This document shows, one piece after another, positions 35,659 through 45,012 of a stretch of DNA of 64,000 bases. Where the stretch lies: the NCBI GenBank assembly GCA_015059095.1, contig SVBA01000002.1, forward strand, positions 1 through 64,000, in the 5' to 3' direction. The DNA comes from Erysipelotrichaceae bacterium. Its GTDB lineage: Bacteria > Bacillota_I > Bacilli_A > RFN20 > CAG-449. The first letter of the stretch is position 1. Every line of letters starts with the position of its first letter. A program made the translations under genes and the position numbers. A model generated the notes under the pieces. That model searched no databases, was not told where the DNA came from, and worked only from the letters and a program-made list of their open reading frames with translations.

Positions 35659-35667
35659 GTGGATGTT

Positions 35668-37755
35668 ATGATTTTTAATAATAAATTATTTAAGGAAAAC
35701 CCATTACATTTATATTCTTTTGATATTGTTGATAATATTCTTAAATTAGTATTGATTAATATAGATAATAAGGATGTATCAACTATTTTTATCGTTCATA
35801 ATGAACACGATTATCAAATAGAGGTTAACTCTAAAGATAAAGTAATTGAAGTTCAAGTTGAGTGTAAAGAGAAAACAAATTCATTAGAAACACCAATTAT
35901 TAAAGAAGCAATTATTGATGGAATAAGAGTGAATTTTAATTATTCTTATGAGTATTTATATATTATTCAACCAAAATCGATTGCTTCAATGAAGGATGAA
36001 AAATATTTATATATTCAAAAGATGGTTAAATATAATGGTTGTAAGAAAGAAAATGTAAAATGTTATTCTGATCAATTTAAAGATTATTGGCATTGTTCTT
36101 GCGGTAGTGTAAATCTTAATTGTCAAGATGAATGTATATCTTGTGGTATAGATAGAAATAAATTATTTACTCAAGAAATTGATAATAGTGTAGAAGAAAT
36201 TGAAACAAGAAAGATAGTAAAGAGTAATTTATACATTATGGCATGGTTTGCTATTATTTGCTTTATTCAATTTATCATTGTCGATACTATGTTTGGGGCA
36301 AATATTGTTTTTGAAACTAAACTTGCTTCTTCTACATTAGGTATTATTTTAAGATTTATTCTTTTACCAGTAGTCATTATACTTTCTATAGGTATTGTTT
36401 TAGCAAGAAAAAGATATTTACTTCCTCTTGTAAAAGGTCTTGAAATCGCTAGAATGCTAACACTTTTATTTTTAAATGTTGTTTGTAATTCATTAATACT
36501 AAAAACATCGTATATATTCTTTGTATTTGTTAGTTTGGATTTAGTGTTTATTCCATTCTATTTCTATCATTATTTTAAGGTTAATAAAAAAGTTATTAAT
36601 TTAATAGCTTCTAGTGCGTTAATTATTTCTTTGATTTCTGGAGTAGGACAAGAGATTTATTATTCTCAATATGATCTTACAATTGAAAAAGAAGGACTAT
36701 CATTAGTAATTGATACTCGAGAAGAAAAATATGTTGTTCCAAATACAATAAATAATATTAGTGTTACTGGTATTTGTTTTGATTCTAGTTATGATTATTC
36801 TAACCTTAAAGAATTATATATTAATAAGGATTTAAAGGAAGTAGTTATCGCTAATAGTAGAGTTTTACCTTCTTTAAGTAAAATAGTTATTGACGAAGAA
36901 AATGATAACTTCTATTTAGATCAAAGTATTTTATTTTCCAATATCACTAATGATGTAGCTTTAGTTCCTGCTTCTACTAAGGAAATTGTAATAACTTGGG
37001 ATAAAGTAAGACCATTGAGTATTTCTGATTGTCCAAACTTAGAAAAAGTTACGATTTCTAAGAATGTTAAAGAAATTGGTAGAATGGCATTTGCTAATTG
37101 TGAAAATCTTAAAACTATTGAGTTTGAAGATAATAGCTCTCTTTCTTTAATAGAAGAAAATGCTTTCTACTATTGTACAAGTTTAAAAGAAGTTAAATTA
37201 CCAAAATCTATTCAAAAGATTAAACATGCGATTTTCTATGGATGTTCATCATTAGAAAAAGTATCTACTCCTTTTGTTGGAGAAAGAAGATACTATACTC
37301 ATGAATCTTCTAATACTGATGTTGCCGCTTATTTATTTGGTGCAGGATATAATTTTGATCAAATAGAAAATGTTAATGTTAAAGAAATTGAAATTACTGA
37401 TCAACCATTGTTTGATAATGTTACTTTCTATAATTGTAAGGCTGATAAAATTATCATTCATGGTGAAGCTTTATTAGAAAATGAGTCTTTAGGAAAGAAT
37501 GCTTTCTTTAATTGTTTTAATTTAACTAGTTTCGTTGTTCCCGAAGGAATTAGTGAAATTTTAGAAGGATGCTTTAGAAATTGTGAAAATTTAGAAACAA
37601 TTACTCTTCCAAAATCATTAAAAACGATACATTTAGATGCATTCGAAAATTGTAAATCACTTAAAAAGGTAATTTATTTAGGTGAAAATTTTGAAGAAAT
37701 AGATATAAAAGATGGAAATAGCGCCCTAAAAAGCGCTTTTTCTTATACTTACTAA
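35668..37755 (+). CDS. Zinc-ribbon membrane protein with BspA-type leucine-rich repeats
   Basis: A 695-residue multidomain protein. Residues 1-140 form an unknown domain. A zinc ribbon follows (Cys143, Cys145, Cys156, Cys159), then about four membrane helices (near 190-325). The C-terminal half contains LRR_5/BspA-type repeats (NCENLKTIEF, CTSLKEVKLPKSI, NCENLETITLPKSLKTI). The zinc ribbon is expected in the cytoplasm and the repeats outside, so it may link surface contacts to an internal partner. The start is the ATG at 35668 rather than the GTG at 35659. The terminator lies inside the last codons. Confidence 0.72.
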   Translation: MIFNNKLFKENPLHLYSFDIVDNILKLVLINIDNKDVSTIFIVHNEHDYQIEVNSKDKVIEVQVECKEKTNSLETPIIKEAIIDGIRVNFNYSYEYLYIIQPKSIASMKDEKYLYIQKMVKYNGCKKENVKCYSDQFKDYWHCSCGSVNLNCQDECISCGIDRNKLFTQEIDNSVEEIETRKIVKSNLYIMAWFAIICFIQFIIVDTMFGANIVFETKLASSTLGIILRFILLPVVIILSIGIVLARKRYLLPLVKGLEIARMLTLLFLNVVCNSLILKTSYIFFVFVSLDLVFIPFYFYHYFKVNKKVINLIASSALIISLISGVGQEIYYSQYDLTIEKEGLSLVIDTREEKYVVPNTINNISVTGICFDSSYDYSNLKELYINKDLKEVVIANSRVLPSLSKIVIDEENDNFYLDQSILFSNITNDVALVPASTKEIVITWDKVRPLSISDCPNLEKVTISKNVKEIGRMAFANCENLKTIEFEDNSSLSLIEENAFYYCTSLKEVKLPKSIQKIKHAIFYGCSSLEKVSTPFVGERRYYTHESSNTDVAAYLFGAGYNFDQIENVNVKEIEITDQPLFDNVTFYNCKADKIIIHGEALLENESLGKNAFFNCFNLTSFVVPEGISEILEGCFRNCENLETITLPKSLKTIHLDAFENCKSLKKVIYLGENFEEIDIKDGNSALKSAFSYTY
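37720..37741 (+). terminator. Terminator inside the 3' end of the repeat-protein gene
   Basis: AGCGC pairs with GCGCT around 8 nt, followed by five T residues, 12 nt before the end of the reading frame. The end of the protein is encoded by the terminator itself. Confidence 0.65.
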
Positions 37756-37886: not shown

Positions 37887-40001
37887 ATGAAAAGCAAAAA
37901 ATTAGTATTATTAATGGCTGCTTTATTAGTTTCTGCCGTCGGTTGTGGAAATCCTGATAGAGAATACATTGCATACGAAGCTGCTGGTTTTGAATCTGTT
38001 CAAAAAATGGAAGAAGCAGTTTTAGGTGCATATGACGCAAAATATCAAGCAGCAGCATCAATCACAGATGCAACAAAAATTAAAGAACGTTATCAAAAAT
38101 TCGCTGATGCAGAATATTCTTTAATTTATGAAGAAGGTATTATCGTACCTTGGTACACAGCTTCTGGTTACTCAGCATCAGTTGCAAGAACTGTACCATG
38201 GCAAGCTGGTAGATCAAGCTATGGTTTAACAGCTGACAAATTAAAAAACGTAGTTGTTACTAATAGTGCAATTACAAAAGCTCAAAGAGAAGCTGTTACA
38301 GCTGCTTATGAAGCTGGTAAGAGTGCTACTCCAGACACAACTCCAGACAAAGATGGTTGGATCTCATTAGCTAACGCTGGTGAAAACCCTGCTTTAGTTG
38401 GCAACAAATATACAGTTGGCGGACAAGAATTCGAAATCAAAAATGAATTCAAAATGGCTTATTCTTCAGAAATCGCTAACGACTGCTTAAACTACTTAAA
38501 AAATACTTGGACTTACAACTCAGCTCACTATACAAACATGGTTGATGGCTTAGTTGAAAATAACAAATATGGTGCTATCGTTGGTGCTTTAGCAGAATCT
38601 TACAAAATTTCTAGAGATAGTGATGGTAACCAAGTTTGGTCATTCAAATTACGTGATGGCTTAAAATGGGTTGATAACGCTGGTAATGAAAAAGGTGATT
38701 TAACAGCTAAAGACTTCGTTAACTCTGCAAAATACGTTTTAGACGCTGTTAACGCTTCTGGTACAGCTAACTTAGTTACTGGTTTCGTTAAAGGTGCTGA
38801 AGCATATTACAAAGGCGAAACAACTGACTTCTCAACAGTAGGCGTTAAAGCTTCTGATGATGGTAAAGTTATTTCTTATACAATGGTACAAGATTGTCCA
38901 TATTTCAACACAGTATTAACATACTCTCCATACTTACCAGTTCACGAAGATTGTTTAAAAGAATTCGGTACAGAATTTGGTGCTACAGTAGATAAGATCT
39001 GGGTATGTGGTGCTTTCAGAGTAACAAAACATGAAAATAGTTCAACTATCGTTTACGAAAAGAACCAATCTTACTGGGATAAAGAACACGTTTACGTTGA
39101 CAAAGTAACTCAAAAATTCTATTCTTCTGCAGTTGCTACTCCAGAAACAACAAGATTATGGTACGCTTCTGGTGAAATTGATTCATTCTCAGTTTCAGCT
39201 CAAGACGAAGCTGGTTGGAAAGAATATGTTGCTGGTGCAGACGGAAAAGGTACTCAAAAGAATCCTGCTCACAACGAATGTAATGGTATCTTATCTGTTG
39301 GTGATGCTACATACATTGGTTACTTCAACTTCAACCGTATGACATATGAATACAACAACAAAGACTACATCAAATCTTATGATGACAAATATGCTACAAC
39401 AATGGCATTATTAAACAAAAACTTCAGATTAGCATTCGTTCATGGTATCGAAGTTGAAGAATACTTCAAGAGATTATCTCCAACTGAACCATATAACTAT
39501 ATCATGAGAGGTTATACTAACCGTGAATTAGTTAAAGACGAAGCTGGTAAAGACTATGCTGACTACGTTGATGATGTTTACAATCAAAAACAAGGTACTA
39601 CTGGTGTTACTTTAACTGGTATTAACGCATTAAAAGACCCAGTATTCGATGCTGCTAAAGCTAAATCTTACTTCGAAGCTGCTAAAGCTGAATTAATCGC
39701 AGCAGGTACATTAAAAGAAAAAGACTTCCCAATTAAGATTGATATTATTGGTACAATGTCAGTTTCTGTTCAAGCTTATGAAAAAGCTATGTACGCTGAA
39801 TTAGAAGAAGCTGGTAAAGGTATTATCGAACTTCAATACAACATCCCAACATCTGATGATCAAGATCAAGACTGGGGTTCAATCTCTGCTAACTATGACT
39901 TCTCTATGTGGTCAGGTTGGGGCCCAGACTATGCTGACCCTAATACATTCTTACACACTATGGCAATCGATGGTGACATGGTTGAAATGTTAGGTTTCTA
40001 G
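37887..40001 (+). CDS. Oligopeptide-binding lipoprotein, SBP family 5, circularly permuted
   Basis: A 704-residue family 5 solute-binding lipoprotein with lipobox SAVGC (Cys20). Residues about 25-124 resemble the normal C-terminal end of such proteins: an ERYQKFADAEYSLIYEEG helix, then IIVPWY and the DKLKNVVV end. A Thr/Pro/Asp linker (about 145-157) leads to the normal N-lobe (ALAESYKIS, VWSFKLRDGLKW, DFVNSAKYVLDA). The protein stops soon after SGWGPDYADPNTFLHT, where family members usually continue for about 100 residues. The parts thus appear in permuted order. A strong terminator follows. Confidence 0.85.
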   Translation: MKSKKLVLLMAALLVSAVGCGNPDREYIAYEAAGFESVQKMEEAVLGAYDAKYQAAASITDATKIKERYQKFADAEYSLIYEEGIIVPWYTASGYSASVARTVPWQAGRSSYGLTADKLKNVVVTNSAITKAQREAVTAAYEAGKSATPDTTPDKDGWISLANAGENPALVGNKYTVGGQEFEIKNEFKMAYSSEIANDCLNYLKNTWTYNSAHYTNMVDGLVENNKYGAIVGALAESYKISRDSDGNQVWSFKLRDGLKWVDNAGNEKGDLTAKDFVNSAKYVLDAVNASGTANLVTGFVKGAEAYYKGETTDFSTVGVKASDDGKVISYTMVQDCPYFNTVLTYSPYLPVHEDCLKEFGTEFGATVDKIWVCGAFRVTKHENSSTIVYEKNQSYWDKEHVYVDKVTQKFYSSAVATPETTRLWYASGEIDSFSVSAQDEAGWKEYVAGADGKGTQKNPAHNECNGILSVGDATYIGYFNFNRMTYEYNNKDYIKSYDDKYATTMALLNKNFRLAFVHGIEVEEYFKRLSPTEPYNYIMRGYTNRELVKDEAGKDYADYVDDVYNQKQGTTGVTLTGINALKDPVFDAAKAKSYFEAAKAELIAAGTLKEKDFPIKIDIIGTMSVSVQAYEKAMYAELEEAGKGIIELQYNIPTSDDQDQDWGSISANYDFSMWSGWGPDYADPNTFLHTMAIDGDMVEMLGF

Positions 40002-40027: not shown

Positions 40028-40063
40028 AAAGAGAAGAAAGCGATTTCTTCTCTTTCTTTTTTT
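40028..40063 (+). terminator. Intrinsic terminator after the binding-protein gene
   Basis: AAAGAGAAGAAA pairs perfectly with TTTCTTCTCTTT around GCGA, followed by a T tract. Partial readthrough into the permease genes would give the usual excess of binding protein. Confidence 0.88.
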
Positions 40064-40147: not shown

Positions 40148-41356
40148 ATGGAAGAAAATTTACAAAAAGAAAATAATTTCTTATCAAAGTGTAAATCAAT
40201 TGCTTCTAAGATTTCAGAAGGCTGGCACAATTTTTGGAATAAACCAAAAGTAAAAAAAATTGTAAAGCCATTTAAAAATCAAACATTTGTTTACATTGTA
40301 AAGAGAGTTTTATCTTCATGTTTTACTTTAATTTTATTAGTTGCTTTAGTTGCACTTTTAATTAGATTGCTTCCAGAAACTAAGTTCTATGATGTTAAAC
40401 ATTACAGAACATTATGTGGTAAAGATGAATTAATGGGAGAAAGATATAGATGGTCATCACTATATCAATACGGATTCGTTGATTTTGAAGGAAATGAAAG
40501 ATCAGTATTCTATAGTATGTTCCAACAAATTTATTATATCTTACCAATTCCAAAATCAATTGAATATGCTTGGGCAGATGCATATTGTAAAGTACCTCTT
40601 GAAGGTGCTGCAGGTACTTGGACTGGTTTAATTTATTTAGGAAGAAGTGTTCAAAGAAAAGAATTCATTACTGACATGTTAGTAAGCGGTATGGGAATTT
40701 CTATGAAAGTTTCTTTAATCACTGTATTCTTTACTTATTTAATCAGTGTTCCTTTTGGTATTGCAATGGCTAAAAAACCAGGTGGTATTGTTGATAAAAT
40801 TGGTAATATTTTTATTGTTTTAAACTATGCTATTCCAGCATTAGTATTCTATTTAATTATGAATAGAGTTTTAGGTGATAGTAATGGTGTATTTGGTGAA
40901 CTAGATTTCGGTTTCTTCTATGATGCAGAAAAACCATGGTCATTATTCCCACCAATCTTCTGTGTAGTATTCTTATCAATTCCAGGTGTTATTATCTGGA
41001 TTAGAAGATTTATGATTGATGAATTAAGCTCAGATTATGTTAAATTCGCTAGATCAAAAGGTCTTTCTGAAAATAGAATTATGTACACTCATGTTTTAAG
41101 AAATGCATGTGTACCATTAGTTAGAAATATTCCTGGTACTTTATTAGGTGCTTTCGTTGGTTCATATTATATTGAAACAATTTGGACAATTCCAGGTACA
41201 GGTAGATTATTAACTAACGCATTACAAACATTTGATATCCCTACTATTCAAGGGTTAACAGTAGTTTATGCGGCTATTTCAATGTTATCGTTCTTATTAG
41301 GCGATATTGTTACAGTATTCTTTGATCCTCGTATCAAGATTACTTCAAGTAATTAG
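40148..41356 (+). CDS. oppB: Oligopeptide ABC transporter permease, OppB type
   Basis: A 402-residue permease with an N-terminal helix (about 50-72), a long extracytoplasmic segment, and five more helices. The EAA-type loop is seen in YVKFARSKGLSENRIMYTHV, which contacts the ATPase. GAAAGGATG-type ribosome site precedes it. A TATAAT-like box lies upstream, so a separate promoter is possible. Confidence 0.88.
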   Translation: MEENLQKENNFLSKCKSIASKISEGWHNFWNKPKVKKIVKPFKNQTFVYIVKRVLSSCFTLILLVALVALLIRLLPETKFYDVKHYRTLCGKDELMGERYRWSSLYQYGFVDFEGNERSVFYSMFQQIYYILPIPKSIEYAWADAYCKVPLEGAAGTWTGLIYLGRSVQRKEFITDMLVSGMGISMKVSLITVFFTYLISVPFGIAMAKKPGGIVDKIGNIFIVLNYAIPALVFYLIMNRVLGDSNGVFGELDFGFFYDAEKPWSLFPPIFCVVFLSIPGVIIWIRRFMIDELSSDYVKFARSKGLSENRIMYTHVLRNACVPLVRNIPGTLLGAFVGSYYIETIWTIPGTGRLLTNALQTFDIPTIQGLTVVYAAISMLSFLLGDIVTVFFDPRIKITSSN

Positions 41357-41370
41357 GAAAGGAGAAATTT

Positions 41371-42369
41371 ATGGAAAACGAATTAAAAAACAATTTTCAT
41401 TCTGTAGAAGCTTCAGACTTAGTTAATGAAGAAATTGACGAAGATTCATTATTTAAAAGAGTAAATCTTGATGAAACTGAATCTGAACATATTGCTGCTG
41501 AACCTTATTCATATTGGAAAGCAGTATTGAGAGTATTTATCAAAAAGCCAGCTGCTATTATTAGTTTAACTTCTTTAGCAATTTTACTTCTTGGTATGAT
41601 CATCATTCCATTATTTGCTCCAGAAGGTTCTATGGAAGTTACTGCTAATTCTTCCAAATTAGCTAACTTAGCTCCATCTTTAGAACATTTATTTGGTACT
41701 GACCAAGCAGGTAGAGATCTATTCTTCATGTGTTGGAAAGGCTTAGGTTTATCATTATTATTAGGTATTGTTGAATCAGCAATTGTTGTTTTAATTGGTA
41801 CATTAATTGGATTAGCTTGGGGTTATTTTAGATGGTTAGATAGAATTATGATTGAAATATATAACTTAATTTCTAACGTCCCATCATTATTACTTTATAT
41901 GTTATTAGCTTCTATTTTAAAAGAAGCATTCCCAAGAATGGCTACTGAAGTTAAAATGATTATTTCATTAACTATCACTAGCTGGATTGGTATCGCATTA
42001 TTTATCCGTAACCAAACAATTATTATTACTAACCGTGAATATAATATTGCTTCAGTTACTTTAGGTACTCCACCAATGAGAATTATGACTAGAAACTTAT
42101 TACCATACTTATTAGCAGTTATCATTACTCAAATGTCAATGTTAATTCCAGGTATGATTTCAAGTGAAGTTTCAATGTCTTATTTCGGTGTTGGTCTATC
42201 TTCAGATACAATTGCAATTGGTGTTTTATTAAATGAAGGTAGAGCTTTATTTACTCAATATCCATGGCAATTATTAGCTCCTGCTGGAATGTTAGCAGTT
42301 ATCATCTTAACATTCTTCTTAATGGGTCTTGCTTTATCAGATGCATTAGATCCTAAGAAACATCGTTAG
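41371..42369 (+). CDS. oppC: Oligopeptide ABC transporter permease, OppC type
   Basis: A 332-residue permease with an N-terminal acidic tail, one helix (about 60-80), the HLFGTDQAGRDLF motif typical of OppC/DppC, and further helices. The EAA loop is NREYNIASVTLGTPPMRIMTR. It pairs with the upstream OppB in the membrane. Confidence 0.9.
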   Translation: MENELKNNFHSVEASDLVNEEIDEDSLFKRVNLDETESEHIAAEPYSYWKAVLRVFIKKPAAIISLTSLAILLLGMIIIPLFAPEGSMEVTANSSKLANLAPSLEHLFGTDQAGRDLFFMCWKGLGLSLLLGIVESAIVVLIGTLIGLAWGYFRWLDRIMIEIYNLISNVPSLLLYMLLASILKEAFPRMATEVKMIISLTITSWIGIALFIRNQTIIITNREYNIASVTLGTPPMRIMTRNLLPYLLAVIITQMSMLIPGMISSEVSMSYFGVGLSSDTIAIGVLLNEGRALFTQYPWQLLAPAGMLAVIILTFFLMGLALSDALDPKKHR

Positions 42370-42382
42370 GGAGGAGAGAATT

Positions 42383-43504
42383 ATGGCTGAAAAATCATTA
42401 AAAAATATTAAATTAAATAGCCCTGCAACTGTAAATGAAGGTGAAGTAATCGTTTCAGTTAAGGACTTAGAAGTTCAATTCTCAGTTAGAAACAGAATTT
42501 TAACAGCAATTAGAAAAGTATCTTTGGATATTTATAAAGGTGAAACAATTGCTATCGTTGGTGAATCTGGTTCAGGTAAATCAGTATTCACAAAAACATT
42601 AACTGGTATGTTAGAAGAAAACGGACATATTAGTGGTGGTTCTATTGAATATGCTGGTGTTGATTTAACTCAATTCCATACAAATGATGATTGGTGTCAC
42701 ATTAGAGGTAAAAGAATTGCTACTATTTTCCAAGATCCAATGACTTCTTTAAATCCATTAAGAAGAATTGGTTCACAAATTACTGAAGTTGTAAGATTAC
42801 ATAGAGGATTAAGCAAAGAAGAAGCTAAAAAAGAAGCTATTAACTTATTAAAGAGAGTTGGTATTTCTGATGCTGAAAGAAGATTCTATGACTATCCTTT
42901 CCAATATTCAGGTGGTATGAGACAAAGAGTTGTTATCGCTATTGCATTAGCTTGTGCTCCAGATATTCTTATTTGTGATGAACCTACAACAGCATTAGAC
43001 GTTACAATTCAAGCTCAAATCTTAGACTTAATTAAAGAATTAAAGAAAGAATATGGCTTTACTGTAATCTTTATTACTCACGACTTAGGTGTTGTTGCTG
43101 AAGTTGCTGATAGAGTAGCAGTAATGTATGCTGGACAAATCGTTGAATATGGTACAGTTGAAGATGTTTATTATGATCCTGCTCATCCATATACATGGGC
43201 ATTATTATCTTCATTACCTCAATTAGGTGAAAAAGGTGAAACTTTATATTCTATTACAGGTACTCCACCATCATTATTCAATGTTGTTAAGGGCGATGCA
43301 TTTGCTCCTAGAAACCCATTTGCTTTAGAAATCGACTTTGTAAAAGAACCACCAATGTTTAAAGTAAGTGATACTCACTATGCAAAAACATGGTTATTAG
43401 ATCCAAGAGCTCCAAAGGTTGAAAGACCAGCAGTTATTGGTGAAATTAGTGCTCGTGTTGAGCGTATTTATGGAGGTGTAATCAACAATGGAAAAAAAGG
43501 TTAA
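42383..43504 (+). CDS. oppD: Oligopeptide ABC transporter ATPase, OppD type
   Basis: A 373-residue ATPase with Walker A GESGSGKS, the signature YSGGMRQR, Walker [13 protein letters not shown] and the switch His in FITHDL. The C-terminal oligopeptide-type extension ([12 protein letters not shown] onward) is present, but its usual Cys-rich iron-sulphur motif is not visible. It overlaps the next gene by 17 nt. Confidence 0.92.
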
Positions 43505-44512: not shown

Positions 44513-44547
44513 AAGTGGTGTCATTATTTGCTTTGATACCACTTTTT
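44513..44547 (+). terminator. Terminator of the opp operon
   Basis: AAGTGGT pairs with ACCACTT, with TCA/TGA continuing inside, then a T tract. Confidence 0.75.
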
Positions 44548-44568
44548 CGCAAAAAGGAGGCATTAATT

Positions 44569-45012
44569 ATGTCATATTATGCAATCTCAGATAATAAATT
44601 AAAACATTCTATTGCTGTTGGTAGATATATGCAAAAATATGCTACTGAAAGATTGTTAGATCCAGAATTAGGCAAAGAATGGTTCATACTTGGCTACTTA
44701 CATGATATTGGTGAAGAATTCACAAATAAAAAAGAAGAACACAATAAAGTAGGTGGCACTATATTAAAAGAACAAAAATATAAATATTGGAAAGAAGTTT
44801 ATTATCATGGTGATCCTAAAACTCCATATATCTCTCCAGCATTATTAGTTCTTAATTTAGCAGAATTATGTGTTGGTAGCGATGGTAAAGTTGTAGGTGT
44901 TGATACTAAATTAAACAAAATTAAAGAAAAATTTGGTGAAGATTCTATTCAATATAAAAATACAAAGGCTCTAGCTAATTTAGTTAGAAATACTCCTGTA
45001 GTATTAAAATAA
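44569..45012 (+). CDS. HD domain protein
   Basis: A 147-residue small phosphohydrolase-type protein. The metal-binding HD pair occurs in LGYLHDIGEEF, with a preceding His in KLKHSIAVGRYM. The start at 44569 follows AAAAAGGAGG; a longer frame from 44515 runs through the preceding terminator and is rejected. The substrate is unknown. Confidence 0.78.
   Translation: MSYYAISDNKLKHSIAVGRYMQKYATERLLDPELGKEWFILGYLHDIGEEFTNKKEEHNKVGGTILKEQKYKYWKEVYYHGDPKTPYISPALLVLNLAELCVGSDGKVVGVDTKLNKIKEKFGEDSIQYKNTKALANLVRNTPVVLK

Follow-up and report, generated by a model that had tools for sequence, protein, structure and literature searches.

The 64,000-nucleotide stretch of Erysipelotrichaceae DNA that was analysed (the window) encodes an OppA-type lipoprotein of 704 amino acids (37887-40001, + strand, ATG start) that is a true circular permutation, with the usual C-terminal end of the family placed at the front of the mature chain. 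We put at about 90% the probability that it is a naturally permuted OppA-type lipoprotein (SBP family 5, cluster C) which serves the adjacent OppBCDF in the ordinary way. The permuted order is conserved elsewhere and arose within a clade of canonical proteins, independently of two other permuted groups; the cut lies in one loop region, and the operon and the motif for the peptide N-terminus were retained.

Chain order and fold of the window OppA

The window OppA starts with a type II signal peptide, which is followed by the moved segment and an 11-residue Ser/Thr/Pro/Asp linker; then come the N-lobe and the middle part, as far as the GWGPDYADPNTFL region, and lastly a short tail:

37887..37946, +, signal peptide and lipobox (AVGC) with the lipidated Cys20, read from the sequence as MKSKKLVLLMAALLVSAVG-C
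37959..38321, +, moved segment, residues 25-145, the ordinary OppA C-terminal end (last domain III helices, cross-over strand IIVPWY, third domain I piece and terminal helix)
38322..38354, +, linker SATPDTTPDKD, residues 146-156, between the former C-terminus and the former N-terminus of the mature chain
38355..39998, +, N-lobe and middle part, residues 157-704, comprising domains I and II and most of domain III
39915..39929, +, GWGPD motif, residues 677-681, peptide amino-terminus site
39930..40001, +, new C-terminus YADPNTFLHTMAIDGDMVEMLGF and stop, in a variable domain III loop

The Pfam family PF00496 (SBP_bac_5) matched residues 231-694 (E 7e-34; 117.9 bits versus a cut-off of 32.4), and because it spans the middle part only, Pfam hides the permutation. 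When solved relatives were compared by phmmer, AliC aligned in two swapped pieces (residues 198-693 to chain positions 22-494 and residues 56-139 to 530-611). AliB and AliD gave the same two-piece pattern, and a full-length alignment to family 5 proteins in normal order was not found. Taken alone, segment 25-148 matched the C-terminal tails of the unpermuted homologues L035 (66% identity), L034 (61%) and L032 (61%) with E values of 7e-41 to 7e-45, which is far beyond chance, versus only 34% identity to the head of the permuted protein L012. Residues 158-704 matched the N-terminal portion of the ordinary relatives. Canonical relatives end at, or at most two residues from, the position of K145 (...YEAGK), and their chains are continuous across the loop LGF...EExVLG, at which the window OppA both ends and begins. 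The usual order, which the PF00496 profile does not itself probe, has the N-lobe first, the C-terminal strands and helix last and the termini in lobe 1; it is not that of the window OppA.

The earlier note had read the first ~100 mature residues as the usual C-terminal end, joined to the N-lobe by a Thr/Pro/Asp linker, and had placed the stop right after the YADPNTFLHT region. These readings were borne out, the chain ending 23 residues past D681 of GWGPDYADP. It had further stated that the missing segment is not encoded after the stop, where a terminator sits; no such C-terminal segment was found downstream of the oppA stop, and a 12-pair stem lies at 40028-40055.

AlphaFold2, run with 40 permuted sequences, returned a confident model (pLDDT 82.7, pTM 0.83; mostly 80-95 in the moved segment), as it did for the canonical L035 (pLDDT 87.0, pTM 0.87). 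The model elements H38-57, H62-82, E86-93 and H131-145 correspond to H616-637, H642-662, E666-671 and H711-726 of L035. Foldseek keeps to sequence order; on AliD it covered 551 columns for the permuted model (TMt 0.64) and 658 for a canonical relative (TMt 0.86). The shorter cover is what a permutation predicts. Matches to AliB and AliD over ~550 columns together with the pTM would fit a normal three-domain clam-shell, in which the moved segment would occupy its usual place and, going by homology and model confidence, residues 25-124 would complete lobe 1.

In AliD, domain III comprises residues 297-582 and domain I residues 29-63, 191-296 and 583-617, and helix alpha19 spans 622-652 (PMC11192437). 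With an offset of ~26 residues taken from the position of AliB W500, the cut would fall at about AliD residues 523-555, in domain III and hence in lobe 2. The lipid anchor would consequently be shifted from lobe 1 and attached via lobe 2. This agrees with the proposal that the old termini lie inside lobe 1 and that lipidation is kept at the new N-terminus, which by alignment and model would now lead into domain III. The closest solved relative, AliC (8qlh), forms a domain-swapped dimer in which lobe 1 from one chain sits on lobe 2 of its partner (PMC11192437), a swap which shows that the fold tolerates re-wiring between the lobes.

Canonical relatives, the opp operon and the peptide site

The nearest relatives of the window OppA, L032-L037, were found in metagenome-assembled genomes of Bacilli, Acholeplasmatales and Erysipelotrichaceae. 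They share 47-51% identity with the main part and 42-66% with the moved part and likewise stand in an oppA-B-C-D-F operon; unlike the window OppA, they are unpermuted, have the matching segment at their C-terminal end and stop where its linker starts. An automatic vote had scored L032 as permuted, misled by a spurious alignment of its N-terminal extension, but the sequence itself is canonical. At residues ~20-110, between lipobox and N-lobe, L032 (L032:5980-8289) carries an extra Ig-like domain, BIG2-like by eye.

Genes for OppB, OppC, OppD and OppF, the components of an Opp ABC importer, adjoin the window oppA, which is the first gene of the operon:

40028..40055, +, intrinsic terminator in the oppA/oppB gap, a 12-pair stem followed by CTTTTTTT
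40148..41356, +, oppB permease (PF00528)
41371..42369, +, oppC permease (PF00528, PF12911)
42383..43504, +, oppD ATPase (PF00005, PF08352), 88% identical to that of L031
43488..44498, +, oppF ATPase (PF00005, PF08352)

The order oppB-C-D-F is the same in permuted and canonical operons, and the products resemble those encoded next to canonical oppA (identity of 49-61% for OppB, 56-66% for OppC and 76-80% for OppD). As the operon order was kept and OppB-F are alike, the permutation arose in place and the transporter was not exchanged. Judged from its sequence, the terminator would reduce expression of the transporter relative to the receptor; a terminator behind the receptor gene, with a lower transporter level, is a common arrangement. 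The window OppA is the sole SBP_bac_5 protein found in its genome, and no second, canonical oppA was detected in this 38-contig, 95% complete draft. Directly 5' of the operon lies a gene for a membrane protein with BspA-type leucine-rich repeats (35659-37755), and directly 3' of oppF one for an HD-domain protein (44515-45012), spaced closely enough for co-transcription.

Residues G677, W678, P680 and D681 were invariant in 40 permuted proteins. In AliB, W500 and D503 bind the peptide N-terminus (PMC11192437); their equivalents in the window OppA are W678 and D681, so that the Trp and Asp of Ali/Ami-type proteins are present. AliC, AliB, AliD and AmiA (SBP_bac_5, cluster C; PMC11192437) resemble the window OppA in the sequence of both pieces, the GWGPD site, the C-terminal helix, the lipobox and an Opp/Ami-type transporter partner. 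The Ali proteins differ in having the normal order and both termini in lobe 1, whereas in the window protein the final ~120 residues stand at the front and domain III (lobe 2) holds the new termini. The most likely function is ordinary peptide uptake, with the window OppA as the oligopeptide receptor of the Opp importer in a rearranged chain. The receptor would capture peptide in the cleft and dock on OppBC.

Other permuted proteins and the number of origins

The search for relatives gave a match in 24 of 41 genomes. L002 (identical to L031; Bacillales bacterium UBA3210), from the same genus as the window genome, aligned over its entire length with the window OppA, in the permuted arrangement, at 53-55% identity. 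Nine more permuted proteins belonged to families f1, f2, f5 and f8 of the taxonomic order. Scanning 84,980 species genomes and then analysing ORFs raised the count of distinct permuted proteins to 58 that are Ali-type or similar, with L023 in addition; apart from L002/L031, the ~57 others were ~30% identical to the window OppA. The permuted proteins occur in Lachnospiraceae, Oscillospiraceae, other Clostridia, Erysipelotrichaceae and Bacilli. Among them are those of the isolates Butyrivibrio hungatei DSM 14810 (L087) and Butyrivibrio sp. INlla14 (L095). In L087, residues 215-740 aligned with AmiA 14-497 and residues 108-206 with AmiA 534-633. Of 120 genomes sampled evenly from the window's class (at least 85% complete), only the window genome and G130 gave a continuous permuted match, the other strong matches being canonical or limited to the middle part; permuted forms are therefore a minority in this class.

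A lipobox was present in 51 of the 59 permuted proteins, and Cys20 was conserved at 90% or more across the permuted set. L057, L071, L083, L104 and L110 are permuted without the lipobox Cys and have signal peptidase I-like ends instead; presumably they are secreted or retained in some other way. Permuted OppA proteins of two kinds, which evolved separately, occur within one genus: those of G001 and G005 (L007, L015) belong to the larger clade, and those of the window genome and G002 (L001, L002) to another event.

After rotation in silico, the permuted sequences were aligned with canonical proteins, and the part that both orders share (505 columns, 59 rows) was used to build a tree. The AU test rejected a single clade of all permuted proteins (lnL difference 329, p-AU 4.7e-9) but did not reject one clade of the permuted proteins without the window OppA and L002 (p 0.46). 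The latter two grouped with the canonical L032-L037 (SH-aLRT 100); as sisters of each other they obtained a low value of 66, so that they may derive from one event or from two. A further group is OppA/DppE-type: residues 129-606 of L023 (G038) aligned with B. subtilis OppA 16-450 and residues 58-128 with DppE 450-520. Among the relatives of L023, L113 and L114 are permuted and L115 (46% identical) is canonical. The AU rejection of one clade and this separate group with its canonical L115 give at least three independent permutation events, namely in the window/L002 clade, in the larger Ali-type clade and in the OppA/DppE-type group. L114 (G054, minus strand) consists of ORFs of 165 and 462 amino acids in overlapping frames, split near the junction of moved segment and N-lobe, which could be due to a frameshift or to an assembly error, or could mean that the protein is naturally made in two pieces.

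All cuts lie in one variable loop past the peptide-binding GWGPD motif. In the two Ali-type groups nearly all ends fall within ~3 residues of one aligned position. The third group was cut in the same loop with differing ends, L114 stopping at ...CQFGK and L023 continuing for 18 residues, which would fit different trimming of an initial overlap. The recurrence at this site may be explained by a variable, tolerant loop and by old termini that would be neighbours in lobe 1. Probably a tandem duplication or a fusion came first and both ends were trimmed afterwards; this route is conjectural, since no duplicated intermediate with the segment at both ends was found among the ORFs of the relatives examined.

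Alternative readings, precedent and significance

The earlier note knew of no described permutation in this family. For SBP family 5 this held, in that no published natural permutation was found in the open-licence literature. For substrate-binding proteins as such there is a precedent, from a different structural cluster: TpMglB-2 (Tp0684) of Treponema pallidum is a permuted cluster B glucose-binding lipoprotein, for which 'Type Ic / Cluster Bc' was proposed, and its authors considered the topology a possible adaptation to membrane anchoring (PMC4990184). It too is a lipid-anchored binding protein of an ABC transporter that was circularly permuted in nature, and its homologues occur in Spirochaetes and Gram-positives. 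It differs in its sugar-binding fold, in that the first strands were moved to the C-terminus, and in that one family, outside SBP family 5, was described (PMC4990184). The window OppA does not have this MglB-like fold, its Pfam and Foldseek matches being to family 5 and cluster C, and the permuted family 5 proteins would be the cluster C counterpart of TpMglB-2. The proof of ancestry is stronger here, with 61-66% identity in the moved piece versus 13% there, and the origin is repeated.

A draft assembly such as that of the window genome could in principle have collapsed tandem oppA copies and joined them in the wrong order. The same order was nevertheless recovered in independent genomes, over the full length in L002/L031 and in ~57 more distant proteins, two of them from the Butyrivibrio isolates, and the Ali-type cuts share an aligned position; an assembly or binning artefact, which would have refuted the earlier note, is thus extremely improbable. 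It is scarcely more credible that the moved segment is a foreign C-terminal piece fused from a different gene. That idea was raised by the authors of TpMglB-2, where the identity of the moved piece is so low (PMC4990184), but both pieces of the window OppA share L032, L034 and L035 as nearest relatives at comparable identity. One ancient permutation common to all permuted family 5 proteins, with several reversions to the canonical order, would account for the loop being the same in all groups, and we regard it as very improbable. The AU test rejects one clade, the window OppA and L002 are nested among canonical proteins, the matched solved OppA/Ali-type structures are canonical, and the reverse event would be needed repeatedly, restoring the exact ends each time.

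An adaptive reading adds to the preferred one, an in-place permutation of an ordinary Opp receptor, and does not exclude it: moving the anchor from lobe 1 to lobe 2 might alter the seating of the receptor on OppBC or the effect of tethering on ligand binding. The repeated origins at one loop in lineages with mostly lipid-anchored binding proteins, the frequent lipobox and the same suggestion for TpMglB-2 (PMC4990184) speak for it. However, the window OppB and OppC are as close to canonical operons as to that of the permuted L031 (59% and 65% identity), so there is no sign of an adapted transporter; some permuted proteins lack the lipobox, and loop tolerance by itself explains the recurrence. 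Hence we consider this reading rather unlikely. With the same reserve, family 5 may have been permuted at least three times at one domain III loop since anchoring via lobe 2 favours tethered receptors, convergently and in parallel to TpMglB-2 in cluster B. The re-anchoring may have been selected or neutral.

The permutation is not a one-off, as a large, older clade of permuted homologues and a third independent group exist. Annotators should be aware that standard alignments lose the moved 100 residues, and a peptide receptor already permuted in nature offers a ready scaffold for designing sensors. To our knowledge, natural circular permutations proven by close canonical relatives in place are uncommon. 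Here, one family offers at least three independent events at one loop along with unpermuted homologues, 47-51% identical, in the same operon setting, which makes the cause and retention of a permutation (loop tolerance, membrane tethering or transporter docking) directly testable.
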